From: an uncultured Bacilli bacterium
GTDB taxonomy: Bacteria > Bacillota_I > Bacilli_A > RF39 > UBA660
Reading direction: 5' to 3'
NCBI GenBank assembly: GCA_944371315.1
Contig: CALVXN010000007.1
Location: 1-34,436, forward strand
DNA: 34,436 bases
The notes under the pieces: generated by a model
Seen by the model: only the letters and a program-made list of their open reading frames with translations
The model's database searches: none
What the model was told of the DNA's origin: nothing
Position numbers and translations under genes: made by a program
Part shown: positions 1 through 10,709 of the stretch, piece after piece
Layout: the number at the start of each line of letters is the position of its first letter
How positions within the stretch are numbered: the first letter of the stretch is position 1

Positions 1-13
1 TCGAGGATTTAAC
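1..13 (+). rRNA. 23S rRNA, extreme 3' end (partial)
   Basis: The first bases, TCGAGGATTTAAC, match the conserved closing sequence of Firmicute 23S rRNA (TCGAGGACTTAACC-like), which pairs with the 5' end of 23S. A 5S gene half follows in the same direction at the usual distance. The exact mature end is uncertain because only about a dozen bases are visible. Confidence 0.6.
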
Positions 14-58
14 TTATTAATATATTACTAATTGATGTGATGCATTATCAGGTTTTTT

Positions 59-75: not shown

Positions 76-76
76 A

Positions 77-125
77 TTGGTAACGATAGCTTAGGTGGTA
101 CACCTCTTCCCATCCCGAACAGAGA
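77..125 (+). rRNA. rrf: 5S rRNA, 5' half of host gene, split by the element
   Basis: This is the first half of a 5S rRNA gene: helix I strand TTGGTAAC (77-84), helix II strand TTAGGT (91-96), helix III strand CTCT (104-107) and the conserved CCATCCCGAACAG block. Past base 125 the sequence stops fitting 5S, and no partner for helix I follows nearby. The partners lie 10 kb away in 10098-10151: GTTGCCAA pairs with TTGGTAAC (one G-U), ACCTAA with TTAGGT. AGAG (121-124) pairs with CTCT locally. Joining 77-125 to 10098-10151 gives a well-formed 103-nt 5S. The gene was evidently whole and has been split by integration. Confidence 0.9.
110..125 (+). repeat. attL core (direct repeat)
   Basis: CCATCCCGAACAGAGA is identical to 10082-10097. 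It lies at the helix III/loop region, one of the most conserved parts of 5S. After one mismatch (T126 against A10098) the match resumes for GTT, so recombination could extend a few bases further. It is read as the recombination core because it is the point where the host 5S sequence breaks. Confidence 0.85.
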
Positions 126-188
126 TGTTTAGAGATTTAGCCCATAAAAAAGTTATTGTTATTTGTATAAAAATATTGTTAAAAATTT

Positions 189-292
189 AGTTGTGTTGAT
201 AGCCAAGTGGAAATACCCTTACCCATCCCGAACAAGGAAGTCAAGCACTTGAACGCCGAAAATAGTATATGCGAAGATAGGAAAATGCAACT
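189..292 (+). rRNA. rrf: Complete 5S rRNA gene carried by the element
   Basis: This is a full-length 104-nt 5S. Helix I AGTTGTG (189-195) pairs with TGCAACT (286-292) with wobble pairs; helix II CAAGTG (204-209) pairs with CACTTG (246-251); helix III CCTT (217-220) pairs with AAGG (234-237). The CCATCCCGAAC and ACGCCGAA blocks are intact. It differs from the split host 5S at many positions, but the stem differences are compensatory, so it looks functional rather than decayed. It lies between the attL core and the left arm sites, that is, inside the element, in line with the rRNA operon, and ends in a T-run (294-302). It is inferred to replace the 5S broken by integration. Confidence 0.88.
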
Positions 293-306
293 ATTTTTTT
301 TTGCTT

Positions 307-343
307 AAAAAAGACTAAACCATTCAAAAATTTAGTCTTTTTA
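307..343. terminator. Bidirectional terminator between 5S and integrase
   Basis: AAAAAAGACTAAA (307-319) pairs with TTTAGTCTTTTT (331-342) around an 11-nt loop. A-runs and T-runs on both flanks let it act in both directions. It would stop rRNA read-through from entering antisense to the integrase gene and end the integrase transcript. Confidence 0.8.
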
Positions 344-358
344 TTATGTTATTTTTTG

Positions 359-382
359 CTAGGTGTCCCACTAGGTGTCCCA
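359..382 (+). repeat. Left arm-type sites, two tandem 12-mers
   Basis: CTAGGTGTCCCA is repeated twice in tandem (359-370 and 371-382). The same AGGTGTCCCA core recurs twice with the same 12-bp period and orientation at 9953-9974. Paired repeats at both ends of an element beside a tyrosine recombinase are typical of arm sites bound by the integrase N-terminal domain. The integrase stop codon lies inside the second copy. Confidence 0.75.
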
Positions 383-1576
383 CTTTTTTGAACTTTCTCT
401 AAGATTAGTGCGAAAATTAGTTAGGTCATTTGCTAGAGATATTTTTCTTTCTTTGTACATATGCCCATATTCATTTGATGTAGTCCTAATATCTTTATGT
501 CTTAATCTTGCTTTAATATCTTCTAATGTTTTACCCATATAAATTAGTAAAGCAGCATGACTATGCCTTAATTTATGTGGAGTAATGTTTTTGTCAATTC
601 CTGCGCGTTTTAGATACTTTTTAAGCATATCTCTAATAGCTTTATCGCCTATTACTTCACATTTACCTCTATTATTAGCAAAAAGATATTTACTAGTAAT
701 GTTATGAGCTTTCCTATATTCAAGAAAGGTTTTATATGTTTCAACTGTAATGTCATCGAGAAATAAATCATCCATTGCTTCATCAGTTTTTGCTTTTTGT
801 CTAATTTTACCTTTATAATAGGTTTCAGTAATGTTTAAAGATGTACCTTGTTCTGTAGTAACTATACTATCTGTTGAAAGAGCCAACATCTCACTAATTC
901 TTAAACCAGTATAAAATAGAAGTTGAATAATGAATAAATCTCTAATATTATCCACAACTGATAATAATTGCATAAATTCTTGATAAGTAAGATATTCTTT
1001 TTCTTTTTTTACTTTTTTAAAGTTGCCTACTACACCTGCAGGGTTATAAGGTACTAACTTCTTTCTAACACAATAATTAAGAAAAGCAGATAATTGTTTG
1101 TGAACTTTAATAAGTGTTTGATTACTTAGGCTTTTATCTTTTTCTCGTAAACAAGTCATAGACAATAGATCCTGATGAAACTTATAAATATGTTCTTCTG
1201 AAATTTCAGAAATTTTAACATTACCTAGTTTCGGAAGTATTTGATTTTTAAATATGGCTTTTTTACCATCTACAGTAGATTCGGCTAAATTACCCTTTTT
1301 AACTTCTAATTCACATTCTTTAATATATGAAGCAAAAGCATCTTTAAAAAGACTACCTTTTTTAGGTAGACTATCTAATTGTTTAAATTTTACTCTTTCT
1401 TCGGCTATATAGTTTTGAGCTTCCTTTATAGTTTTTAAATTAATCTTTCTTCTTTTAATTCGTTTATTATATAATTTATCGTATAATGCAAATGCAACTG
1501 CATAAGTTCCATTTGTTTTATGTTTATAGATATAATCATAGTTCGTTTTTTGGTAATCTTCTTTAAAATTAATCAT
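371..1576 (-). CDS. int: Tyrosine recombinase (integrase)
   Basis: A 401-residue site-specific recombinase of the Tn916/phage integrase family, expected to catalyse integration and excision at the 5S core. The N-terminus (about 10-65) looks like an AP2-type arm-binding domain, 75-180 is a SAM-like core-binding domain, and the rest is catalytic. Active-site residues are visible: R226 (TGLRISEM), K263 region, H334 and R337 (TPHKLRHSH), H360 (RLRHKD), and nucleophile Y370 (NEYGHM). The start ATG has a good AGGAGAAG ribosome site. The gene ends within the left arm repeats, so its 3' end is constrained by att DNA. It points leftward, away from the regulators. Confidence 0.95.
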   Translation of the reverse strand: MINFKEDYQKTNYDYIYKHKTNGTYAVAFALYDKLYNKRIKRRKINLKTIKEAQNYIAEERVKFKQLDSLPKKGSLFKDAFASYIKECELEVKKGNLAESTVDGKKAIFKNQILPKLGNVKISEISEEHIYKFHQDLLSMTCLREKDKSLSNQTLIKVHKQLSAFLNYCVRKKLVPYNPAGVVGNFKKVKKEKEYLTYQEFMQLLSVVDNIRDLFIIQLLFYTGLRISEMLALSTDSIVTTEQGTSLNITETYYKGKIRQKAKTDEAMDDLFLDDITVETYKTFLEYRKAHNITSKYLFANNRGKCEVIGDKAIRDMLKKYLKRAGIDKNITPHKLRHSHAALLIYMGKTLEDIKARLRHKDIRTTSNEYGHMYKERKISLANDLTNFRTNLRESSKKWDT

Positions 1577-1598
1577 TAATTTACTTCTCCTATCTTTT

Positions 1599-1614
1599 CT
1601 AATTTTGAAATTAG
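1599..1614. promoter_or_regulatory. Palindrome upstream of the small RNA and int
   Basis: CTAATTT-TG-AAATTAG is a perfect 7-bp inverted repeat. It occupies the place where a -35 box of the rightward small-RNA promoter would be, and lies in the leader of the leftward integrase gene. It could be an operator controlling either; no second copy was found at the regulator promoters. Confidence 0.45.
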
Positions 1615-1623
1615 TGCTATAAT
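1615..1623 (+). promoter_or_regulatory. Extended -10 promoter of the small RNA
   Basis: TGCTATAAT is a perfect extended -10 element reading rightward. No good -35 is present, which is acceptable for extended -10 promoters. Transcription would start near 1629-1632. Confidence 0.55.
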
Positions 1624-1628
1624 AGGAG

Positions 1629-1721
1629 TACAGAAAAAAAGTTGTTCTTTGGTAGATTAATTTTTTATTCTGTACGCTATTATTAGCGGTGAGTTAGTGT
1701 TGGCGCACTAGCTCTTTTTTT
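1629..1721 (+). ncRNA. Candidate trans-acting antisense small RNA
   Basis: A rightward intergenic transcript of about 93 nt is predicted between two leftward genes. After the extended -10 box come three stems: GTACAGAA (1628-1635) with TTCTGTAC (1668-1675), extended by A-T pairs across a mismatch and enclosing a 22-nt loop (1641-1662); GCTA/TAGC (1676-1679, 1685-1688); and a terminator stem GAGTTAGTG (1691-1699) with CACTAGCTC (1706-1714), one G-U, then a run of T. Bases 1645-1666, mostly in the first loop, are the exact reverse complement of 2490-2511 in the leader of the excisionase-like gene. Both transcripts come from the same strand, so the RNAs can pair. Promoter, folds and complementarity are seen; function is inferred. 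Confidence 0.65.
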
Positions 1722-1722
1722 A

Positions 1723-2118
1723 TTATTTAATCATATCAATAGTTGTTAATATGTATTTTAGTTTTTGCTTATCTAATTTAGACAATTCACTAAGGCATTT
1801 ATATAGTAATTTACTATCTTCAGAATTATATATTATGTTTTTAATATTTAATAGTAATTTACTTTCTTCTGTATCATCTACTATATGCAAGCTGTCATCA
1901 ATATCATGTTCTTCAGTAAGCATAGGAATTGAAACACCTAAGCATTCTGCAATTGCTTTAATTTTACTTAACTTTGCATAGCAATAACCTTTTTCATAAT
2001 CCCTTATTGAATTATAAGGTATGCCTGTATCATCTTCTATATCCTTCCTACTTTTTCCTTTTAATTTCATATAATATTTAAGATTTTTACTAAAAATTTC
2101 TTTTTTTCTTGTGTTCAT
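1723..2118 (-). CDS. XRE-family (CI-like) repressor
   Basis: A 131-residue protein with an N-terminal helix-turn-helix (about 10-65: IFSKNLKYYMKLKGKSRK, then DIEDDTGIPYNSIRDYEKG) and an acidic to lysine-rich C-terminal region with no protease or metal motif recognised. I start it at MNTRKK because GGAGGGAT sits just upstream and because the longer reading runs into the promoter. It faces a Cro-like gene across a divergent promoter region, the classic layout of a lysogeny-type switch, so it probably keeps excisionase and replication genes silent. Without an S24 peptidase domain, induction probably depends on another signal or protein. Confidence 0.85.
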   Translation of the reverse strand: MNTRKKEIFSKNLKYYMKLKGKSRKDIEDDTGIPYNSIRDYEKGYCYAKLSKIKAIAECLGVSIPMLTEEHDIDDSLHIVDDTEESKLLLNIKNIIYNSEDSKLLYKCLSELSKLDKQKLKYILTTIDMIK

Positions 2119-2138
2119 AGTATCCCTCCGACAAAAAT

Positions 2139-2167
2139 ATAATACCATAAGAAAAATCATTTTTCAA
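2139..2167 (-). promoter_or_regulatory. Promoter of the XRE repressor gene
   Basis: Leftward -35 TTGAAA (complement of 2162-2167), a 17-bp spacer and -10 TATTAT (complement of 2139-2144). It sits about 20 bp before the repressor start codon. Confidence 0.75.
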
Positions 2168-2209
2168 GAGAAAAAAAGTAAAAAAATTATGAAAAATTGC
2201 AAAAATGTA

Positions 2210-2237
2210 TTGACATTAAAAGAAATATAATTATAAT
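2210..2237 (+). promoter_or_regulatory. Promoter of the cro-xis-rep operon
   Basis: TTGACA (2210-2215), a 16-bp spacer, then TATAAT (2232-2237): a near-consensus vegetative promoter. It reads rightward into the Cro-like gene, the excisionase and the helicase. It lies back to back with the repressor promoter. Confidence 0.8.
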
Positions 2238-2282
2238 AGATGGCATATCAACTCATTAAATGGGTTTAGAAAGGAGAAAAAA

Positions 2283-2468
2283 ATGACATTAAAAGATATA
2301 AGAGAAAGTAAAAACTGGTCATTGGAAACAGCTTGTAAAGCCTTCTGTATTGATGCAGAAACACTTATCAACTATGAAACTGGTAAAGAAGTTCCAGATA
2401 TGTGGATATTAGATATCATATTAAATGTGCTTGAATTAGATTATGATGACATTATTTTTGATTCCTAA
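2283..2468 (+). CDS. Small XRE/Cro-like DNA-binding protein
   Basis: A 61-residue protein consisting almost only of a helix-turn-helix domain (MTLKDIRESKNWSLETACKA, then AETLINYETGKEVPDMW), like Cro-type or truncated XRE regulators. An AAAGGAG ribosome site precedes the ATG. It is the first gene after the strong rightward promoter and opposite the larger repressor, so it probably opposes or modulates that repressor. An inverted repeat, CCTAA...TTAGG, overlaps and follows its stop codon (about 2464-2479) and could attenuate or process the message before the excisionase gene. Confidence 0.8.
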   Translation: MTLKDIRESKNWSLETACKAFCIDAETLINYETGKEVPDMWILDIILNVLELDYDDIIFDS

Positions 2469-2489
2469 GTGATTTAGGAAATGAAATGC

Positions 2490-2511
2490 AAAAAATTAAT
2501 CTACCAAAGAA
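2490..2511 (+). promoter_or_regulatory. Small-RNA target in the excisionase leader
   Basis: This 22-nt stretch is the perfect reverse complement of 1645-1666, which lies mainly in the loop of the candidate small RNA. It sits 11 nt before the AAGGAGGA ribosome site (2523-2530) of the excisionase-like gene. The match stops abruptly on both sides. Confidence 0.6.
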
Positions 2512-2538
2512 TAAATTTAAATAAGGAGGACAAGTTTT

Positions 2539-2718
2539 ATGGCTAGTAATATGTTTGATGTTAAACAATTAGCAGAATACTTGAATGTTAGTGTCTCACT
2601 TTTACGAAAACTAGTTCGCCGTAATGAGATACCATACAATAGAATTGGAGTTAAGCTTATGTTTCAGAAGAACGAAATAGATAAATGGTTAAAAGATAAT
2701 ATGAATTCAAATAAATAG
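2539..2718 (+). CDS. xis: Excisionase-like MerR/HTH_17 protein
   Basis: A 59-residue protein, MASNMFDVKQLAEYLNVSVS..., ending in a lysine/asparagine tail. It has the excisionase-family winged-helix pattern: 'VKQLAEYLNVS' for the first helices, then 'LVRRNEIPYNRIG' and 'FQKNEIDKWLK' for the wing and last helix. Such proteins bend att DNA and steer a tyrosine recombinase toward excision. The start has a strong AAGGAGGA site. It lies between the Cro-like gene and the helicase, 20 bp before the latter. Its leader carries the small-RNA target, so it may be controlled after transcription. Confidence 0.8.
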   Translation: MASNMFDVKQLAEYLNVSVSLLRKLVRRNEIPYNRIGVKLMFQKNEIDKWLKDNMNSNK

Positions 2719-2738
2719 TTGAGGAAAGGATATGTTAT

Positions 2739-3866
2739 ATGGATATAAATATTGATAATTTAGTTGCAGATTTGAAAGTTGATTATAAAGACCAGAGTGT
2801 ACTAACAACACCATCACCTGAATTAGAAAAAGTAAACCAGTTTTTTTCTGATATTACTTCTAATGATAAAGGTGTAGAAAATTTGTTATTTCAAATACTG
2901 GGAAATGCCATGTGTAAGACAGCCGTTATGCAAAAAGCCTTTATCTTCAAAGGCAAAGGCAGGAATGGCAAGAGTCGTTTGTTTAGAATACTAGAGGCTA
3001 TTTTGGGAGAACAACAATGTTCTTATGAAACTTTAGAAACTCTTTCGGGAAATAAATCAGGTAGTAAAACAAATGCTAGATTTTTAAAAGGATGTACGGT
3101 TAATATTAGTGAAGACCAGCAACAACCCAGATATATTAATCATTCTATACTTAATAAGATTATATCAGGAGATACTATTTCAGAAATTAAAGGTAAAGAA
3201 AGAATAGTATTTAGACCTTATGCAACAATGTTGTTTTCTGTAAACGATGTGATAGACTTCAAAGAAACTAAAATATGTATTACTGATAGAATCGTAGTCA
3301 TTCAATTCAATTCAACGTTTATTGAAAATCGTAATATTAACATTGAATATGAATTATGCCAACCAAAAGCATTGCAAATAATAGCAACTAGAGCTATTAA
3401 TGCTTTTAAAGAGGTGTTAAAAAATGGGAAATTCACTATACCTCCTGTCGTGGAGTTAGAAACAAACAGATACTTTATGGACTGTAATAATGTGATAGAA
3501 TTCTGTAATTTGTTTCCAATAAAGGAATTTATGGTTAAAGACAGATACCATAAAGAATACTGTAAGTGGTGTGCTTCAAATAATTTAGAAGCCTACAATA
3601 ATGTTAAATTTGGTAAAGAAGTATTAAATTTAGGATATCGTTCTGAAAGATTTACTTTTGGTAGAAAGAAAATCACTTGTTATGTTTCTCCAAATTTTAA
3701 CAATACTGAAAACAAGAATATTTATCATAGATATCTCAAGGAAAATGGTATAAGTGAGGAAGCTGGTAGGATATATGATGAAGCTACATTAGTAGCAACC
3801 TTTGGTATTCCCCCATTTGATGAGTACTTATGGAAATGCAATAACAATACAGAAAATACTAAATAA
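2739..3866 (+). CDS. D5-like SF3 helicase (replication protein)
   Basis: A 375-residue helicase of the phage/plasmid P4/D5 type, expected to unwind the element's origin. Walker A is GKGRNGKS (72-79), the Walker B-like motif is VNISED (121-126), the sensor strand is MLFSVND (164-170) and the likely arginine finger is in DRIVVIQF (R184). A C-terminal winged-helix-like region (about 250-345) follows. The primase domain usual in larger members is absent, so priming must come from the host or this is a helicase-only initiator. Start chosen after GAGGAAAGGA; it is cotranscribed with xis. Origin-like repeats lie directly downstream. Confidence 0.88.
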   Translation: MDINIDNLVADLKVDYKDQSVLTTPSPELEKVNQFFSDITSNDKGVENLLFQILGNAMCKTAVMQKAFIFKGKGRNGKSRLFRILEAILGEQQCSYETLETLSGNKSGSKTNARFLKGCTVNISEDQQQPRYINHSILNKIISGDTISEIKGKERIVFRPYATMLFSVNDVIDFKETKICITDRIVVIQFNSTFIENRNINIEYELCQPKALQIIATRAINAFKEVLKNGKFTIPPVVELETNRYFMDCNNVIEFCNLFPIKEFMVKDRYHKEYCKWCASNNLEAYNNVKFGKEVLNLGYRSERFTFGRKKITCYVSPNFNNTENKNIYHRYLKENGISEEAGRIYDEATLVATFGIPPFDEYLWKCNNNTENTK

Positions 3867-3873
3867 CTCGATA

Positions 3874-4126
3874 ATGCCTCTCCTAGGCTCTGACAGGCTC
3901 TAGGAGAGCTTTTATCATATAGGGCGATAAAAAATTTGTAAAAATAGTTATGCCTCTCCTAGGGTCCCCCTAGTTGCATAAGGAGGTTTTAATAGGGAAG
4001 CCCTAGGAGAAGCATAACTTCATATTTAGGAATATTGCTATGCCACTATGCCACTATGGCATATATAGTATATTTAATTTTAAATTTATAATCAAATATA
4101 AGAAAACTATAGTTATTTCACTATAG
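3874..4126. other. Putative replication origin with iteron-like repeats
   Basis: This non-coding stretch behind the helicase is rich in ordered repeats. ATGCCTCTCCTAGG occurs at 3874-3887 and 3950-3963. A 19-bp inverted repeat with one mismatch spans 3946-3964 and 4001-4019 (AGTTATGC... / ...GCATAACT). Further on are ATGCCACT twice then ATGGCAT (about 4039-4062), and a palindromic ACTATAGTT twice (about 4107-4128), embedded in AT-rich DNA. Repeats next to an SF3 initiator gene are typical of satellite and plasmid origins, which is the basis of the call. Confidence 0.6.
3878..3914 (+). terminator. Hairpin after the helicase gene
   Basis: CTCTCCTAG (3878-3886) pairs perfectly with CTAGGAGAG (3900-3908), followed by CTTTTATC. 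It could end the cro-xis-rep transcript, though the T-tract is short. Its stem also forms part of the origin-like repeats. Confidence 0.5.
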
Positions 4127-4291
4127 TTAATTCTTACTAATTTTTCTAATATCTACTTTACTTTCATTTTCTAAATTATTCTTCTCATTACATTTTGAAT
4201 TATTATTATACTTATTATTTTTTGAATTTGAATTTTGATTATTATTATTGTTGTTATTATGATTACTTATACTATTAGAATTATTTATCAC
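4127..4291 (-). pseudogene. Asn-rich reading-frame remnant
   Basis: The leftward frame reads VINNSNSISNHNNNNNN, then QNSNSKNNKYNNN and a charged tail ending VDIRKISKN. It looks like the Asn-rich C-terminal tail of a larger protein, such as a plasmid or phage replication initiator. No credible start exists: the only candidate is a GTG at 4291 without a ribosome site, and the frame is closed upstream. It may be a truncated gene whose front was lost or replaced by the structured block at 4295-4530, or simply TTA/ATT-rich DNA. Confidence 0.3.
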
Positions 4292-4294
4292 GTA

Positions 4295-4530
4295 GTCAAG
4301 AAAAACTTAAGCCTCACACACTTTAGAATTTCTTTCAAATTGTTGATATTTACATTATTAAACAACTACGGTCAGATAAATTAACGGTCTGGGTTCTTAT
4401 GTGTTACCACATAATGTCCAGTATGACGGTCGGGTCGAGGTTGTTTTAACAACAAAAATACTTAGGTGTGAACTAGTATTCAAGGACTCCACAATTGTTC
4501 CGTATCTGACTTGACCAAGTTTTTTAAAAA
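4295..4530. ncRNA. Compact, highly structured block; candidate RNA or cis-acting site
   Basis: Self-complementary segments are dense here and G+C looks higher than in the surroundings. Outer pairing: GTCAAG (4295-4300) with CTTGAC (4510-4515). Inner long-range stem: GTCAGATA (4371-4378) with TATCTGAC (4503-4510). Hairpins: CTGG (4389-4392)/CCAG (4418-4421) closing TTATGTG-TTAC-CACATAA (4397-4414); GTTGT-TTTA-ACAAC (4440-4453); AATACT/AGTATT (4457-4462, 4475-4480). The last loop contains GTGTGA (4466-4471), which can pair with TCACAC (4314-4319) as a pseudoknot. All frames are closed. Strand is undecided; a rightward RNA would end in the T-run at 4521 or the terminator at 4570. It could instead be part of the origin. 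Confidence 0.45.
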
Positions 4531-4598
4531 TCATTACATTAAAGATAAGATATACCTTTTTTAATGATTAGGACATTATCTCTTATTGGGTCCTTTTT
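4526..4598. terminator. Paired terminators downstream of the clpP-like operon
   Basis: Two adjacent hairpins are visible. AATCATTA...TAATGATT (about 4529-4568), read leftward, is followed by T residues and would end the clpP-like operon. AGGAC (4570-4574)/GTCCT (4590-4594) followed by TTTT ends transcripts coming from the left. Confidence 0.6.
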
Positions 4599-4670
4599 AA
4601 TAATGTAATAGTAAATATTTTTCGTATTCACTATCATAATATATATAACCTAATCCGATTTTAATCACAT

Positions 4671-5255
4671 TTAGTTTTTAACTAACACTTTATCGACTAA
4701 ACCATATGCAAGTGCATCTTCTGCATTAAACCACTTGTCTTTTAATTGAATATCATCTCTAACTTGTTCAATACTTTTTCCTGTATTATCTGATAATAAC
4801 TTTATAATGCGTTCATTTAAAGCATTAGAATGTTCAAAATCAATTTTTACTTCTCCGATTTTACCTATATTAATTGTACTTACTTCATGTATCATAACTT
4901 CACTATTCGGAGTTATATATCTTTTGCCTTTTGTTCCACCACTAAGAATTACAGCAGCCATTGAAGCACATCTTCCAATACATATTGTTTGAATATCGCT
5001 TTTTACCATTTGCATTGCGTCATAAATAGCCATTCCTTCGGAAACAGTACCACCAGGAGAATTAATATAAAATATTATATCTTTCTTGCTTTTCATAGAA
5101 TCTAGTTTTAATAGTTGTTCTACTATTTCATCAGCTTCTTCTCTGCCAATAGACTTATTTAAACGAATTATACGATTATCAAATAATTTTATTTCAGAGG
5201 GGGTTTTAGGTTTAGTCTCTTTCTTCTTTTTCTTTTTTGGTTTCTTAGTACTCAT
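4671..5255 (-). CDS. ClpP-like serine peptidase
   Basis: A ClpP-fold peptidase of 194-197 residues. Numbering from the upstream ATG at 5264, the triad is complete and correctly spaced: S101 (GRCASMAA), H126 (SEVMIHEV) and D176 (QLKDKWFNAEDA). The substrate-handling motif YINSPGG (66-72) is present. The N-terminus differs from housekeeping ClpP: a lysine tract of about 20 residues replaces the propeptide/axial-loop start. I prefer the ATG at 5255 because the AGGAAGG site abuts the upstream one. It is last in a leftward operon after an MBL nuclease and SSB. No Clp ATPase is in the element, so it would have to use a host unfoldase or act alone. Role unknown; it may be regulatory proteolysis or defence. 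Confidence 0.9.
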   Translation of the reverse strand: MSTKKPKKKKKKETKPKTPSEIKLFDNRIIRLNKSIGREEADEIVEQLLKLDSMKSKKDIIFYINSPGGTVSEGMAIYDAMQMVKSDIQTICIGRCASMAAVILSGGTKGKRYITPNSEVMIHEVSTINIGKIGEVKIDFEHSNALNERIIKLLSDNTGKSIEQVRDDIQLKDKWFNAEDALAYGLVDKVLVKN

Positions 5256-5287
5256 ATTTTTCATTCCTTCCTAATTTATTATAAATA

Positions 5288-6475
5288 CTATATGTCGTAT
5301 GCCTTCTTGTTCTTTAAATGCTTAACTTTGTATGGTAAATTTAACTTATCAAAATCATGTGAATTTTCTCCATGTATAGGAATAATTACTTTGGGCTTTA
5401 CTATATTACAAACTTCGGTAATTCCTTTAGCAGTAGCATGACCACTAGAATGTAAATAATAATATTCTTTTGGAACAAACTTAACAATATTTTCATCAGC
5501 AGTTTTGCCTTGCAAGTATCCTAACCATTGTGAATAAATAAATAAATTGTCCTTGAAATTAGGGCTATTAACAAACTTTTTTGAAAAGTAATTGCTTCGC
5601 ACTAACATACAAAAGCCTCGATTTATCATATCTTCATAAAACTTACCATCAAAACTTTTAACATCTGAAAAATTATAATAATCAGTATGTTTTAAAGTGG
5701 TTTTGGTTACATAATCAAGTATCTCTTTTTGGTAGTCATCACAAATAAATAGTTTAGTTCCTGCTTTTCTATTTGCATGATAGAAAGAAGCTATCCTATC
5801 AATATTGGTAGAAGCACACATAATAAAGACATACTTATTATTTTTTATCAAGTCTATTGCTTCCTTTTGTAATTCAAATTCAGACATAAGGATTTCATCA
5901 ACTCTTGAAAGGGTAGTATGTTCACAAATGAGAATATCAACATTTCCTACATCTTCAAGTATTTTAGGAATAAGTCGACCAAGAGGACCATGCATTCTAA
6001 AATCTCCAGTATGTAAAACTCTTTTACCATCGGCTTCAATAAGAAACATATAACTATCAAAAGCAGAATGGTCTATGCGAATAGGGGTTAATCTCATATC
6101 TCCAATTTCAATAGTTTCTTCAGGTCTAAAAGTTTTAAAAGTTTTAATTCTGTCAATATGTTCTTGAGTAACTTCTGCAATACTAGGCTCTTTCATTCTC
6201 TTTTGGTAGATCGTAAATATTTCTTTGGCTTGTTCTCCAATGTAAATAGGAACTTCTTTCTTAACCTGCATATATTCCCCAATGTGGTCTAAATGATAAT
6301 GAGAAATAAAAACAGCATCGCATTTTTTACTAACCTTAGCAACATTCACTTTTACTTTACTATCACAATTTGGTAGATTAGTTCCAACATCAATAAGTAT
6401 TTTTGCTTTTTTACTTCTAATTTCAGTTACACATCCCCCAATTTGATTAATACCTCTGTGAATTTTGATTTGCAT
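5288..6475 (-). CDS. Beta-CASP metallo-beta-lactamase-fold nuclease (RNase J-like)
   Basis: A 395-residue MBL/beta-CASP protein, the group of RNase J and CPSF-type nucleases. Metal ligands are visible: HYHLDH (59-64), H136 (IDHSAFD), D158 (HTGDFR), and the late histidines H346 (SSGHATA) and H368 (IPIHGEN). It is shorter than RNase J (about 550) and lacks most of the C-terminal domain. It is expected to cut or trim RNA, possibly DNA. It lies 14 bp after ssb and 32 bp before the ClpP-like gene (start at 5255) in one leftward operon. Two places in its message, 6369-6380 and 6202-6211, are complementary to the loop of the candidate small RNA. Confidence 0.88.
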   Translation of the reverse strand: MQIKIHRGINQIGGCVTEIRSKKAKILIDVGTNLPNCDSKVKVNVAKVSKKCDAVFISHYHLDHIGEYMQVKKEVPIYIGEQAKEIFTIYQKRMKEPSIAEVTQEHIDRIKTFKTFRPEETIEIGDMRLTPIRIDHSAFDSYMFLIEADGKRVLHTGDFRMHGPLGRLIPKILEDVGNVDILICEHTTLSRVDEILMSEFELQKEAIDLIKNNKYVFIMCASTNIDRIASFYHANRKAGTKLFICDDYQKEILDYVTKTTLKHTDYYNFSDVKSFDGKFYEDMINRGFCMLVRSNYFSKKFVNSPNFKDNLFIYSQWLGYLQGKTADENIVKFVPKEYYYLHSSGHATAKGITEVCNIVKPKVIIPIHGENSHDFDKLNLPYKVKHLKNKKAYDI

Positions 6476-6489
6476 AAGTATATCCCTTT

Positions 6490-6804
6490 CTACTTTTGAT
6501 TTAATAACTCTCTATTACTTGATAAGAATGTTACTTTTTCAGCAACGACTTTGATTAGATTACCTTCTTTACTTTCTAATCTTCCTCTAATCCCTATTAA
6601 GTCGTTTTTCTTGCAATATTGAAAAACTTTACTTCCAACATAATTTGTTAAATCAATAGGTAAAACATCAGTTTCATAAACACCATTTTGATTTTTGAAA
6701 TTACGACTAATATTCAACATAAGTTGATAAGTAACTTGGTCATTCACTTCAATTTTTTCAACATCATTATATATTTTTCCAATTAGCATAACGTGATTAT
6801 TCAT
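6490..6804 (-). CDS. ssb: Single-stranded DNA-binding protein (SSB family)
   Basis: A 104-residue OB-fold protein opening MNNHVMLIGKIYNDVEKI with 'YQLMLNISRN' and 'DVLPIDL..VGSKVFQYCKKNDLIGIRGRLE', the standard SSB strand pattern. It is shorter than chromosomal SSB and lacks the acidic C-terminal tail that recruits host replication proteins, as in some phage and plasmid SSBs. It probably coats single-stranded DNA exposed by the element's SF3 helicase. GGAGATGA precedes the ATG. It is second in the leftward operon. Confidence 0.88.
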   Translation of the reverse strand: MNNHVMLIGKIYNDVEKIEVNDQVTYQLMLNISRNFKNQNGVYETDVLPIDLTNYVGSKVFQYCKKNDLIGIRGRLESKEGNLIKVVAEKVTFLSSNRELLNQK

Positions 6805-6832
6805 GATTTCATCTCCATTTCTTTATTAGGTT

Positions 6833-7405
6833 TTACATAAACATAGTTCTTTTTTTATCGTAACAATACTTTGAACATCTTTTCAACACAGTTTTTTTTG
6901 GTCTTGTTAATCCTTTCTTATTAAAATAATACCTATTAATTAAATATTTCACATAAGCACTTGTGTACTCTTGATGATATAGATTTTCAATATATCTTTG
7001 CACCTCAGGAATATTTCTGTGTCTCCGAAGTAGCTTTAATTGCTCGGATATATTATTCTTTTGTTCCAGAATGTTTTTAACTACAGGTGGAGTTTTGTCT
7101 CTTACATCAGCAAACTCTTTAAAAGTGATTTTATGATTTAAATACTTGGTTAATTTATAAATATAATATAGAGCTATATGTTTAGTAAATTCAATTTTAA
7201 AATCAAAATCTTGTATTTGCTTAGTGTATAAAACATAAGAATAGTTTTTTTCCTTATTATATACAATAACTTCTTCTCCATTTGGTTTAAGTTTAAGATT
7301 AGTAAAAACTGCTTTTGTCTTATTCTTACTAGTCTTTGCAACTTGAATATTGTTAAAAACTAAGTCTAAAAAGTAATAGACTTCTTTTTCAAAATCTTGC
7401 TTCAT
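6833..7405 (-). CDS. Hypothetical protein, first gene of the SSB operon
   Basis: A basic protein of about 190 residues that I do not recognise. The middle (about 95-150) has predicted helices with KEFADVRDKTPPVVK and LRRHRNIPEVQRYIENL; the end is rich in K, R, Y and C (RCSKYCYDKKRT). No catalytic motif, signal peptide or membrane segment is evident. The start is put at the ATG after AGGTG rather than the TTG five codons upstream. Its place directly before ssb suggests a replication or nucleic-acid role, which is inference only. Confidence 0.7.
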   Translation of the reverse strand: MKQDFEKEVYYFLDLVFNNIQVAKTSKNKTKAVFTNLKLKPNGEEVIVYNKEKNYSYVLYTKQIQDFDFKIEFTKHIALYYIYKLTKYLNHKITFKEFADVRDKTPPVVKNILEQKNNISEQLKLLRRHRNIPEVQRYIENLYHQEYTSAYVKYLINRYYFNKKGLTRPKKTVLKRCSKYCYDKKRTMFM

Positions 7406-7422
7406 CTCCAACACCTGCAATT

Positions 7423-7465
7423 AATATAACATAATGGCTTTTATAAGTCGTAACACAAAATAAAA
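7423..7465 (-). promoter_or_regulatory. Probable promoter region of the SSB-MBL-ClpP operon, repeated at the right end
   Basis: AATATAACATAAT, then TTTTA, AGT, GTAA and ACAAAA is shared in order with 9868-9910 (about 80% identical by eye over 40 bp). Read leftward it offers a TTACGA-like -35 and a TTATAT-like -10 just before the first gene. Being repeated in two non-coding places, it may hold a shared regulator site. Confidence 0.4.
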
Positions 7466-7517
7466 ATAAGAAAGAGTAAAGTTAAATTAAGATAAATATA
7501 CACTTCATCACACAACA

Positions 7518-7547
7518 TAGAAAAAAGGACTTATTAATTAGTCCTTT
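7518..7547 (-). terminator. Terminator of the PH-like/membrane protein operon
   Basis: AAAGGACT (7524-7531) pairs perfectly with AGTCCTTT (7540-7547). Read leftward the stem is followed by a run of T (complement of 7520-7526). It lies about 90 bp after the stop of the membrane-anchored protein at 7635. Confidence 0.75.
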
Positions 7548-7634
7548 ATATATCTGCTTAAAATAAAGTATATATTCATGAATCCCAATGTATTTTTTAA
7601 TATTTTAGTAAGATTTGAAATAAGTGATATTTCA

Positions 7635-8228
7635 TTAATATAACTCTGATGTTATATAATCTACTAAATCAGGATACATTTGCTCAAATTCATCTATTGG
7701 TGCAATAAAATAACCAGTTCCTAAAGTATCTGTGTATCCATCCTTATCAACATCAAAGTATACTTCTCCCAATGTAAAGAAATATTCTTTTTGCCCAGTA
7801 TCCATATAAGTAAAACAAGTGGGATATAAATAAGTTGATAAATCAACAGTATTTTGTCCTGTATAGGCTTGTTCTGTCCAATCATAAGCAATATTTTTAA
7901 CAATATTATATAAGTTAGGATAGTTAGTAGCTAATGCACTATCAAATATTCTTTGGTTATTGACAACATTTGTTATATCTACTGGTGTACCTTTTAAAAA
8001 TTTCTTTTCATCTGCAATGTAAAAGTATTCTGTTACCTCATATCTTTCTACATTAGAGTTTGGAACTTGATTATTGTTTTCTTGATTGTTTTCTTGGCTA
8101 TTATTTTCTTCGCTTGTAGTAAGATTATCATCTTTTTCAGTCAATAAAGCTACCCCAACTCCAAAGCCTATTGTCAACATAAAAATACCTATAATAAGTA
8201 GCACTGCTTTAATTACATCTTTTCTCAT
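7635..8228 (-). CDS. Membrane-anchored extracellular protein, unknown function
   Basis: A 197-residue protein with one N-terminal membrane segment (about 7-30: VIKAVLLIIGIFMLTIGFG, then VGVALL) and no lipobox cysteine, followed by a Q/N/E-rich linker (38-60) and an acidic globular domain (about 62-197) rich in Y, D and T. DVDKDGYTD (about 156-164) resembles a short Ca-binding loop. I do not recognise the family. It is the last of three leftward genes, all probably envelope-linked, and ends before a good terminator. It may be cell-surface cargo such as host-envelope modification or phage exclusion; this is speculation. Confidence 0.75.
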   Translation of the reverse strand: MRKDVIKAVLLIIGIFMLTIGFGVGVALLTEKDDNLTTSEENNSQENNQENNNQVPNSNVERYEVTEYFYIADEKKFLKGTPVDITNVVNNQRIFDSALATNYPNLYNIVKNIAYDWTEQAYTGQNTVDLSTYLYPTCFTYMDTGQKEYFFTLGEVYFDVDKDGYTDTLGTGYFIAPIDEFEQMYPDLVDYITSELY

Positions 8229-8250
8229 TAAACTCTCACTCCTTAAACAT

Positions 8251-9012
8251 TTAATTTAATTCTAATATAACTTCATTTTTGTTGATTCCCACACTATAAC
8301 GATAGTTGCTTCCACTAGCGCTTGGTAAATAGCCAAACCATATTGTATTGGAATCAAAACTATCTATTAGTATATCACTTGTTGTAGTACATTTCACAAT
8401 AATAATATCACCGCTAGTACTATTATATTTGCAACTTATTTCGCTTGGTGATAAATAATCTCCTGCGAGTTTTGAAACAGCAGCTCTTTCAGCACTATCT
8501 CTACGAGAGTTCGTTTCAGCTCCACCTGAAAGCCAATAGACTCCCCAGATAAAAAAACCTATACCTATTATAACAGGTATTAAATCAAAGATATTAACTC
8601 TTATGCTAGTAGCACTATCATCATTACTAACTTGCGCATTATTTAATGTGGTAGTTTGACTTTCTTGGTCAATTGATTCTGATGGCATTTTTTTGACAGA
8701 ATTTATTTCCTTCTGTTCTGTTTTAACATATTCTGTTTGGATTATTTCTTCATTTTTTTGTTGTGATATTTCTCTTAATTGATTAATTAATTGTTGGTCC
8801 TTTTTCATTCCAAGATATGTTGTACTCCCGCCATATTGAATAATATGTAGCTGTTCATCATCTTCATGATATGAAGAATTCTTAATATTAGAGTAAGGGA
8901 TTTTAATCAAATTACCATCATTAGTAGTTATAGTTAGGCTATCGTCTTTTATTTTTAGTATTGCATCATTCTTCTTGTTTCCTTGGATAAGCACTACATT
9001 TAACTTTCTCAT
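8251..9012 (-). CDS. PH-like N-terminal domain protein with one membrane segment
   Basis: A 253-residue protein. Residues 1-90 alternate short beta strands ('LNVVLIQGNKK', 'SLTITTNDGNLIKIPYSNI'), like a bacterial PH/GRAM-type domain. A Q/E/S-rich linker follows (about 90-145), then one strong membrane helix (about 147-165: LIPVIIGIGFFIWGVYWLS) and a small C-terminal beta-rich domain with two cysteines that may be outside. It starts 3 bp after the stop of the smaller PH-like gene, so the two are translationally linked. Function unknown. The paired PH-like genes suggest a membrane-surface sensing or scaffold role. Confidence 0.75.
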   Translation of the reverse strand: MRKLNVVLIQGNKKNDAILKIKDDSLTITTNDGNLIKIPYSNIKNSSYHEDDEQLHIIQYGGSTTYLGMKKDQQLINQLREISQQKNEEIIQTEYVKTEQKEINSVKKMPSESIDQESQTTTLNNAQVSNDDSATSIRVNIFDLIPVIIGIGFFIWGVYWLSGGAETNSRRDSAERAAVSKLAGDYLSPSEISCKYNSTSGDIIIVKCTTTSDILIDSFDSNTIWFGYLPSASGSNYRYSVGINKNEVILELN

Positions 9013-9015
9013 AAA

Positions 9016-9303
9016 CTAGCCTCTTAATTTTTTTATAGCACTTTGAATAGAATTAACCCATTCTTTCCCACCAAAAACAGCAAAAGTTTCGCTTCCATTA
9101 ATAGTTTCGATTATTAAATTATTGGGAAACCCTTTTTTTACATTAGTGATGTTTTCTAATTCAACTTCAAATTCTTTTTTGCCTACATTAACTTTGTGCC
9201 CTTCGAAATATAAAGTTTCATTAGTTAAAATAAGTTTTCCACCTTTACTGCCAAAGCCATGATACCAATTAGCAGCACCACTTTTTAAAATTTCTTCTTT
9301 CAT
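9016..9303 (-). CDS. GRAM/bacterial PH-domain protein
   Basis: A 95-residue single-domain protein with the order 'GKLILTNETLYFEGH', 'FEVELENITNVKK', 'NLIIETINGSETFAVFG', then 'EWVNSIQSAIKKL', as in GRAM/bPH domains: strand pairs followed by a C-terminal helix. TAAGGAGGAG precedes the start. It heads the leftward operon, divergent from an XRE gene across operator-like repeats, and is probably repressed by that regulator. Such domains bind membranes or proteins; a specific role here is not known. Confidence 0.75.
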   Translation of the reverse strand: MKEEILKSGAANWYHGFGSKGGKLILTNETLYFEGHKVNVGKKEFEVELENITNVKKGFPNNLIIETINGSETFAVFGGKEWVNSIQSAIKKLRG

Positions 9304-9360
9304 TTTTTCTCCTCCTTACTATTTATTATAGCATAAATAATAATATTTGAAAATATATTT

Positions 9361-9458
9361 TTAAGTTATTTACTTAAATTATTTAAGTATTTAATTTATG
9401 GTTAAATTCTTGCTTTTTACCGATAATATTACTGATATTTATTAAGTTATTTGCTTAA
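9361..9458. promoter_or_regulatory. Operator repeats between the PH-like operon and XRE gene
   Basis: TTAAGTTATTTACTTAA (9361-9377) and TTAAGTTATTTGCTTAA (9442-9458) are 16/17 identical, each with palindromic TTAAG/CTTAA ends. Another TTTAAGTATTTAA lies between them (about 9382). The right copy abuts the ribosome site of the XRE gene. This pattern suits autoregulation by that protein and repression of the leftward operon. Confidence 0.65.
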
Positions 9459-9474
9459 TATAAAGGAGGCTTAT

Positions 9475-9777
9475 ATGAACTATACCGACGAAAACAGAAA
9501 AGTGCTTTTACAAAAAATAGGAAAAAACATTAATTACTATCGTTATCATTGTAATAACATAAAGATAATGAATGATAAGGGCTTCGTAACCATTGAAAAG
9601 CTAGCAGAAGAAATAGACAGTAGTCCAAATATGCTTTATAACTTAACAGCTAAGAAAGTGGAACAAGGAGTATCTGTAATATTTTTAGATAAATTAGCTC
9701 GTGTATTAGATGTAAGTTTGAGTTGTTTCTTTTTAAATACACCATTACAAAATCCACCAAGATATAAAGAACAATAA
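9475..9777 (+). CDS. XRE-family regulator of the right-end module
   Basis: A 100-residue helix-turn-helix protein: 'GFVTIEKLAEEIDSSPNMLYNLT' then 'VSVIFLDKLARVLDVSLSCFF'. This is an XRE fold with little beyond the DNA-binding domain. The start is the ATG at 9475 after AAAGGAGG; an earlier in-frame start would overlap the operator. It is divergent from the PH-like operon and flanked by matching operators, so it probably represses itself and that operon, independently of the CI/Cro pair at the other end. Confidence 0.85.
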   Translation: MNYTDENRKVLLQKIGKNINYYRYHCNNIKIMNDKGFVTIEKLAEEIDSSPNMLYNLTAKKVEQGVSVIFLDKLARVLDVSLSCFFLNTPLQNPPRYKEQ

Positions 9778-9832
9778 TAATTATATAAGTAAGTACTTAT
9801 CAACAAATTTATTATTCTAATACAATAGTTTT

Positions 9833-9857
9833 AGATGTTATATTATTTCTAACATCT
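9833..9857. repeat. Inverted repeat after the XRE gene
   Basis: AGATGTTA (9833-9840) and TAACATCT (9850-9857) form a perfect 8-bp inverted repeat with a 9-nt spacer. There is no T-tract, so it is either a weak terminator of the XRE gene or a protein-binding site. Confidence 0.45.
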
Positions 9858-9888
9858 GTAAATAATATAACATAATAATTTTTAGAAG

Positions 9889-9917
9889 TTGTAATACAAA
9901 ACAAAAAGAGGTATAAT
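9889..9917 (+). promoter_or_regulatory. Outward-facing promoter at the element's right end
   Basis: TTGTAA (9889-9894), a 17-bp spacer and TATAAT (9912-9917) form a good rightward promoter with no element gene downstream. In the integrated state it reads through the arm sites into the 5S 3' half. In a circular form it would read across the joined ends into the element's own 5S gene. Confidence 0.6.
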
Positions 9918-9952
9918 AATCATAAATAAGAAATACGCAGAAGTAAATTTAA

Positions 9953-9974
9953 AGGTGTCCCATTAGGTGTCCCA
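9953..9974 (+). repeat. Right arm-type sites
   Basis: AGGTGTCCCA occurs at 9953-9962 and 9965-9974, the same sequence, spacing and orientation as the pair at 361-382. It lies about 107 bp inside the right core; the left pair lies about 235 bp inside its core, the extra length being the 5S gene. Confidence 0.75.
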
Positions 9975-10081
9975 AAAACTAAAATAAAGTATAATAATTT
10001 GTAATATTTTAAGATATTTTCAATAAATTAAAAACCACTTTAAAACAAGGTAGAATAAGATATAATAATAGTGTAATTCGT

Positions 10082-10097
10082 CCATCCCGAACAGAGA
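10082..10097 (+). repeat. attR core (direct repeat)
   Basis: Identical to 110-125. Upstream sequence (GTGTAATTCGT) does not fit 5S while downstream sequence does, so this is where element DNA ends and host 5S resumes. Confidence 0.85.
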
Positions 10098-10151
10098 AGT
10101 TAAGACCTAATACGCCGAAGATAGTGTAATGCGAAAATAGGTAGTTGCCAA
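10098..10151 (+). rRNA. rrf: 5S rRNA, 3' half of host gene
   Basis: The second half of the split 5S gene: GAAGTTAAGA region, helix II partner ACCTAA, the ACGCCGAAGATAGT block, and helix I partner GTTGCCAA (10144-10151), which pairs with TTGGTAAC at 77-84. A run of nine T follows. By itself it lacks any promoter-proximal half, so it cannot give a normal 5S unless the element excises. Confidence 0.9.
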
Positions 10152-10200
10152 TTTTTTTTTGCAATAAATTATGAAAATAAATAAATCGTAAAATAATATT

Positions 10201-10256: not shown

Positions 10257-10709
10257 ATGGAATTTAAATATACATCAAGGTCAGTAGAAGACACATTAAC
10301 AATTGCACAAAACATTGAAAGTGAAAAATTTCCAAATATGATAATATGCTTAGAAGGTGAACTTGGAAGTGGTAAAACTGTATTTACAAAAGGCTTTGCA
10401 TCTGCATTAGGCATTAAAGATACAATAACTAGTCCAACATTTAATATAATAAAAGAATATTTAAATGGGGAAATGCCTTTATATCATATGGATGTTTATC
10501 GCTTAGAAGAAACAGATGAAGATATCGGTATAAATGATTATTTTAACAAAAATGGCATTACAATTATAGAATGGGCAGATATAATAAATGATATATTACC
10601 ATCAGAAAGACTTGTTATTAAATTTAAAGTTATAGATGAGGACACACGAGTATTAGTATTTATCCCATATGGGGAAAAATACGAAGAATTATGTAGTGCC
10701 GTATTATAA
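10257..10709 (+). CDS. tsaE: tRNA t6A synthesis ATPase TsaE
   Basis: A 150-residue P-loop ATPase that drives the cycle of the TsaB-TsaD-TsaE complex, which transfers threonylcarbamoyl to A37 of ANN-decoding tRNAs in the cytoplasm. Walker A is GELGSGKT (34-41), followed by 'ITSPTFNIIKEY' (about 59-70) and 'IIEWAD' near 103. Length is normal. It leads an operon with tsaB (starting at the last base of its stop codon), rimI and tsaD, the common Firmicute order. It is the first gene beyond the mobile element and the rRNA terminator. Confidence 0.95.
   Translation: MEFKYTSRSVEDTLTIAQNIESEKFPNMIICLEGELGSGKTVFTKGFASALGIKDTITSPTFNIIKEYLNGEMPLYHMDVYRLEETDEDIGINDYFNKNGITIIEWADIINDILPSERLVIKFKVIDEDTRVLVFIPYGEKYEELCSAVL

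Follow-up and report, generated by a model that had tools for sequence, protein, structure and literature searches.

How does a bacterium continue to make ribosomes once its 5S ribosomal RNA (rRNA) gene has been cut in two by an integrated element? This question is raised by a 34,436-nucleotide (nt) stretch of DNA from an uncultured Bacilli bacterium (CALVXN010000007.1, here called the window), which is the entire contig C7 of a metagenome-assembled genome (MAG; 1.09 Mb, 58 contigs) and in which an integrative element of 9.97 kb, measured between two 16-base-pair (bp) core copies, separates the halves of a native 5S gene. Large ribosomal subunits universally contain 5S rRNA as a structural component, and a complete gene for it is also present on the element itself. 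We consider it very probable that this site-specific element splits the native gene and supplies its own 5S, which would be matured and used in ribosomes instead, with excision restoring the native gene.

A first-pass annotation of the window had claimed that the two 5S halves fit each other, and this is correct to within a base or two: joined, they reproduce letter for letter the intact 5S found at the same locus (G026:C42) in the sister species G026, the closest of the species compared (tsaE 96% identical). Intact 5S genes were also found in the element-free partners of four further host/sister pairs, the joined halves differing from them at 0 (G249/G121), 3 (G242/G111), 3 (G134/G260) and 10 (G262/G139) of about 105 nt, counts which leave out two end-offset columns that the script counts. 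The split halves are always of the host's own 5S type with no visible decay, and the empty site in the sister species and in five other genera holds one 5S. The usual order in this bacterial family is 5S followed directly by tsaE-tsaB-rimI-tsaD, and in five relatives the 3' end of the 23S rRNA gene lies immediately upstream of the split 5S (Rfam); in the present MAG 23S rRNA is unassembled and the contig apparently begins at its end. The 16-bp direct repeat that had been taken to mark the crossover is present at both ends, but it is partly host-specific, since in five further hosts the left and right attachment sites (attL and attR) have only about 7 bp in common, YCGAACA, corresponding to 115-121 and 10087-10093 of the window. 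When attL and attR are compared in hosts whose 5S sequences differ from this one, the crossover can be placed approximately at this motif, which lies in loop C of the 5S, flanked by the inverted repeat of helix III.

Searching the assembled genome contigs for the integrase yielded eight loci (77-99% identity), to which two further genomes (G134 and G262) were added, and the int-plus-5S element is now known from 10 further assemblies belonging to at least six other genera of small-genome gut Bacilli. The same order of truncated native 5S, conserved segment and complete 5S was found in 11 of 11 assemblies, supporting the original claim of an integrative element that splits the 5S gene and brings a complete one in the right place and orientation. 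Because the architecture recurs in the 10 other assemblies it is not due to chance, and because the records stem from several independent projects it is not an artefact of a single assembly; independent assemblies sharing one architecture rule out assembly artefact as an explanation. Where assembled, the far side of the element is mostly the tsaE locus. The element of G490, which apparently occupies a second rRNA locus with an ABC-type gene as neighbour, and that of L062, beside other genes, sit elsewhere, which makes the 5S gene, and not the locus, the target.

The integrases form a discrete clade, with matches of at least 77% identity or none within the E-value limit, found in 6 of 291 genomes of the bacterial family and in six of the 385 from the order; a class-wide profile search of 395 sampled genomes turned up none beyond the bacterial family. 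A pattern for the element-type 5S (3 mismatches allowed) matches exactly the six integrase-bearing genomes among the 385. Elements from two different genera (G249 and G242) match at 98.1% over 4.1 kb and at 99.2% over 4.6 kb and their 5S genes are identical, while the native 5S of these genera are only 82.9% identical; an rRNA gene that looks functional has thus recently been transferred horizontally. Viral collections including IMG/VR contained no close relatives by integrase, RNase J-like protein or 5S patterns, a profile search of them giving matches at 23-33% identity only; phage and plasmid records held only integrases below 60% identity (about 25-32% among the matches listed), and no phage record matched the element 5S (blastn). 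Other insertions in 5S genes, hinted at by partial 5S matches in the bacterial family, were rejected, all of these being at contig ends and thus assembly breaks. The copy at L062 (CALVHJ010000016.1) lacks the stretch from mid-integrase to the middle of the RNase J-like gene, its 5S and attachment halves being intact; it may be a defective or stranded copy, and misassembly is possible at 4.6-fold coverage.

The second, full 5S that had been noticed just inside the left end was recovered with Rfam, and its helices, described as self-consistent, hold throughout the family: in nine distinct element 5S sequences, each of 105 nt, all 26 tested pairs are formed (100% of 234 cells, against at most 41% in slid controls), and six of the pairs, located in helices I, II and III, show changes on both sides. 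Since nine distinct sequences keep every pair of the fold through such changes, the element 5S RNA is under selection. These 5S are 88-100% identical to each other and 72-76% identical to the native 5S of sister species, and score 62-69 bits on RF00001. Of the further claim that the gene is sense to the rRNA operon and followed by a terminator, the orientation is confirmed and a T-run with a hairpin is present, but a strict terminator scan made no call at 291-342. A promoter scan near 189 gave nothing above chance, which is consistent with read-through from the rRNA operon.

Two features go beyond the first-pass annotation. Pairs of AGGTGTCCCA repeats in a single orientation, at 361-382 and 9953-9974 and also in relatives, are likely to be integrase arm sites, and the element 5S thus lies inside the attachment region (attP), between core and left arm. 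Furthermore, the segment between core and 5S shows complementarity to the host 5S, in the 5' half left stranded by the split: positions 152-162 can pair with 80-90 in 95% of cells across 11 hybrids, many of these pairs being G-U, so that A/G variation among hosts is tolerated, and only 0-20 per 1000 shuffles gave duplexes as stable. In modelled joint transcripts the real segment gave helix I of the element 5S a probability of 0.81-0.99 (lower in the window, see below), shuffled ones a probability of 0.01-0.55, the real one doing better in 10 of 10 cases. We give an even chance to the proposal that the segment is an insulator hairpin, locking up the broken host half.

In the mechanism that we propose, the tyrosine integrase would recombine attP with loop C and helix III of the host 5S gene. 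The order in attP would be right arm repeats, about 107 bp, core, the 63-bp hairpin segment, the full 5S gene with its terminator and left arm repeats, a layout by which integration would cut the native 5S and place the element 5S in one step, about 112 bp downstream from where the broken gene begins and sense to 23S. The transcript of the rRNA operon, started at the rRNA promoter, would then read into the element 5S and terminate after 293, and the hairpin segment would pair with the stranded host 5' end, keeping it from invading the new 5S and giving a stem for its removal. After maturation the element 5S would take over from the native one in ribosomes, until excision rejoins an intact native gene, as suggested by the undecayed halves and the presence of an excisionase-like gene.

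The element 5S is the sole intact 5S in 6 of the 7 element-bearing genomes screened, and a single 5S gene is the rule in the bacterial family (G269, assembled as one contig, has a single rRNA locus). A stronger version of our reading, in which the swap is obligatory, the host's only 5S being destroyed, every ribosome depending on a divergent element 5S and an RNA insulator neutralising the broken host half, seems to us probable, if with less assurance than the swap itself. Several observations weigh against one or both of these readings. A native 5S survives in G490, at a second rRNA locus, which means that the element copy does not always stand alone, and in the window's own genome a further 5S could be missing, since the rRNA operon is unassembled. 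All of the genomes are MAGs or drafts, the evidence being sequence only, and excision is our inference. The RF00001 scores of the element 5S are slightly below those of most native 5S. As for the hairpin, its covariation among the 11 hybrids was not beyond that of shuffles, leaving conservation of the hybrid helix unproven; five hosts have a mispair at one of its positions, and for the window the real segment gives helix I a probability of just 0.40.

Some of these points could also be explained if the carried 5S were an unused relic of capture, for example from a host with tandem 5S genes, and hosts survived by means of an unassembled rRNA operon; MAGs often miss such operons, and besides the second native 5S of G490, tandem 5S genes are present in the element-free relatives G269 and G282. 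We regard this as unlikely, because an intact 5S in 11 of 11 elements, with compensatory helix changes, is not what a relic would show, while nearly all genomes of the bacterial family have one 5S and the position behind 23S is invariant. The same count bears on the first-pass annotation, for which a related element without a 5S gene would have told against the swap: none of the 11 was of this kind.

Another possibility is that the restored target is the hybrid left half itself, made up of the host 5' half and the element segment, in the manner of elements using transfer RNA (tRNA) genes, with the full 5S an extra copy that tunes translation. The closing of a stem between the segment and the host 5' end fits this view, but the hybrid is without loop E and helices IV and V, and cmscan (Rfam) finds at 76-164 only a sub-threshold match of 34 bits against a gathering score of 38, scores in the elements not exceeding 34 bits. 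To judge from its sequence the attL recombinant 5S looks dead, unlike targets restored by a copy of their 3' end, and this explanation is accordingly very improbable. Least credible of all is that the second 5S belongs to a tandem array of the host in whose first copy the element merely inserted, as two relatives with tandem 5S before tsaE might suggest: the element-type 5S occurs in 0 of 379 element-free genomes of the order, a finding that would have spoken against the original claim had it been otherwise, it moves between genera with the element (G242 and G249 share one 5S sequence), its position is internal to the left arm sites, and it is absent from empty sites, where just one 5S is present in the sister species and in five other genera, so that for the taxa sampled this origin is refuted, the 5S type being found only alongside the integrase.

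Replacement of the native 5S by that of the element remains our preferred reading, and the tandem genes are of interest in their own right. In G269 (L102, G269:C1:889889-890207) and G282 (L103, G282:C1:69062-69334) two 5S genes stand between 23S and tsaE, separated by about 63-105 bp, and a promoter-like TTGACT...TAATAT precedes the downstream copy of G269; such an array is a possible source of the captured 5S. Elsewhere (L108/L082, G219:C27:20386-20491), a 5S that is possibly an orphan has promoter-like sequence directly upstream in place of 23S.

The remaining features of the element are collected in Table 1. With its integrase beside an attachment site, direct-repeat core, uninterrupted empty site and arm-type repeats at both ends, it has the make-up of a tyrosine-integrase integrative element, and the combination of int, regulator and primase module without structural phage genes is that of satellites resembling P4 or the phage-inducible chromosomal islands (PICIs). 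No relaxase or conjugation family was found in Pfam, PHROGs and NCBIfam scans of the element open reading frames (ORFs) scanned. The ClpP-like protein fits cellular ClpP models better than head proteases. The ClpP-like, RNase J-like and single-strand binding protein (SSB) genes (4671-6804) occur together in all sufficiently sequenced elements (L058-L061, L069, L070), and the RNase J-like nuclease might act in maturation of the element-borne rRNA. Between primase and clpP lies a long non-coding stretch (4080-4645), 68-76% conserved in L059, L060 and L061 and matching no Rfam family, the GC-richer parts of which could be a structured RNA or an origin. Other repeats comprise an imperfect hairpin with 27-nt arms (85%) just 3' of the primase gene (3946-4019; I9), a 63-nt direct repeat (81%; 7404-7466 and 9845-9907) with similar copies in relatives, and a 29-nt inverted repeat (93%; 1638-1666 and 2490-2518) around the repressor region, possibly operators.

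Table 1. Features of the window from the rRNA operon to tsaE, with the evidence for each (HTH, helix-turn-helix).
Feature	Position	Strand	Evidence or remark
23S rRNA 3' end, probable	1-14	+	contig edge; similar to 23S 3' termini of relatives
Native 5S rRNA gene, 5' part (attL side, core included)	76-125	+	identical to first 50 nt of intact G026 5S
Host strand GUAACGAUAGC of predicted hybrid hairpin	80-90	+	folding/pairing analysis
Core, left copy, 16 bp CCATCCCGAACAGAGA	110-125	+	direct repeat family D1; family-wide crossover segment CCGAACA at 115-121
Element segment between core and 5S	126-188	+	conserved in 11 elements; 152-162 (GUUAUUGUUAU) pairs with host 5S 5' end
Complete element-borne 5S rRNA gene	189-293	+	Rfam RF00001 62.1 bits, E 6.5e-11 (gathering 38)
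T-run after 5S helix I, then hairpin AAAAAAGACTAAA/TTTAGTCTTTTT, probable terminator	291-342	+	sequence; conserved in alignment of relatives
Arm-type repeats, left pair AGGTGTCCCACTAGGTGTCCCA	361-382	+	repeat family D18; conserved in relatives
Tyrosine integrase, 401 aa	371-1576	-	Pfam Phage_integrase 7.9e-25; PHROG 1 integrase 2.5e-55; adjoins one att site
Cro/CI-type repressor	1723-2121	-	HTH_3 8.9e-8
Small HTH_17 excisionase-like protein	2539-2718	+	HTH_17 1.7e-12; PHROG excisionase families
P4-type primase/helicase C-terminal protein	2739-3866	+	TIGR01613 130 bits, above cut-off
ClpP-like protease	4671-5264	-	CLP_protease 8.6e-58
Metallo-beta-lactamase-fold protein, RNase J-like	5288-6475	-	RMMBL 2e-7; RNase J chains E ~1e-13
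Single-strand binding protein	6490-6804	-	SSB 1.8e-8
Accessory genes, four ORFs, last with GRAM domain	6833-9303	-	ORF list, Pfam
HTH regulator	9475-9777	+	HTH_26 3.3e-5
Arm-type repeats, right pair AGGTGTCCCATTAGGTGTCCCA	9953-9974	+	repeat family D18; orientation as left pair; recur at relatives' right ends
Core, right copy, 16 bp CCATCCCGAACAGAGA	10082-10097	+	direct repeat; comparison of attL/attR
Native 5S rRNA gene, 3' part, T-run beyond	10098-10153	+	identical to 3' part of intact G026 5S
tsaE, host gene	10257-10709	+	directly downstream of 5S in element-free relatives

Genomic islands generally carry a replacement part that keeps the recombinant target functional, regulated gene integrity being the exception (PMC10111431, PMC3715440). 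Elements using tRNA or transfer-messenger RNA (tmRNA) genes (integrative and conjugative elements, phages, islands) resemble the present one in having a tyrosine integrase and a short core in a conserved RNA gene with inverted-repeat character, and in keeping the target's function through replacement sequence in attP (PMC3715440, PMC10111431); the crossover in loop C, flanked by the helix III inverted repeat, likewise recalls the use of stem-loops in tRNA genes. Those elements carry the 3' end of their target in attP, whereas the present one targets 5S rRNA and crosses over in the middle of the gene, the recombinant gene appears non-functional and a whole divergent second copy substitutes for it. 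As in elements of the regulated gene integrity type, the target is truly disrupted and would be rejoined on excision, but no loss-of-function switch is expected, because the element itself supplies the lost function. Placing essential rRNA on an accessory replicon has a parallel in Aureimonas, Oecophyllibacter and Persicobacteraceae, whose rRNA operons are solely on plasmids (PMC10645730), though in those bacteria the whole operon is plasmid-borne, and here it is one rRNA gene, on a site-specific element whose integration disrupts the native copy. PICI/P4-like satellites share the small size, int, repressor, excisionase-like protein and P4-type primase, but no packaging or helper-interference genes were recognised in our element. 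The first-pass annotation knew of no family with such behaviour, and no integrative element targeting or carrying 5S turned up in the literature searched, a set without most subscription papers. The integrase chemistry is thus the known part of this system; the 5S target and the mode of compensation are new.

In these bacteria the 5S gene is both landing site and cargo, so that an rRNA component spreads horizontally between genera and would replace the resident one in hosts which usually have a single assembled 5S gene, and genomic 5S sequences should be treated with caution, as they can be of mobile origin. The interchangeability of a core ribosomal RNA thereby becomes testable in nature. For integrases, this constitutes a third route to exploiting an essential gene as target, besides the use of harmless targets and 3'-end restoration. 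The element would gain a hold on its host, much like an addiction system, and if the obligatory swap is true, its loss by any means other than precise excision would be lethal.

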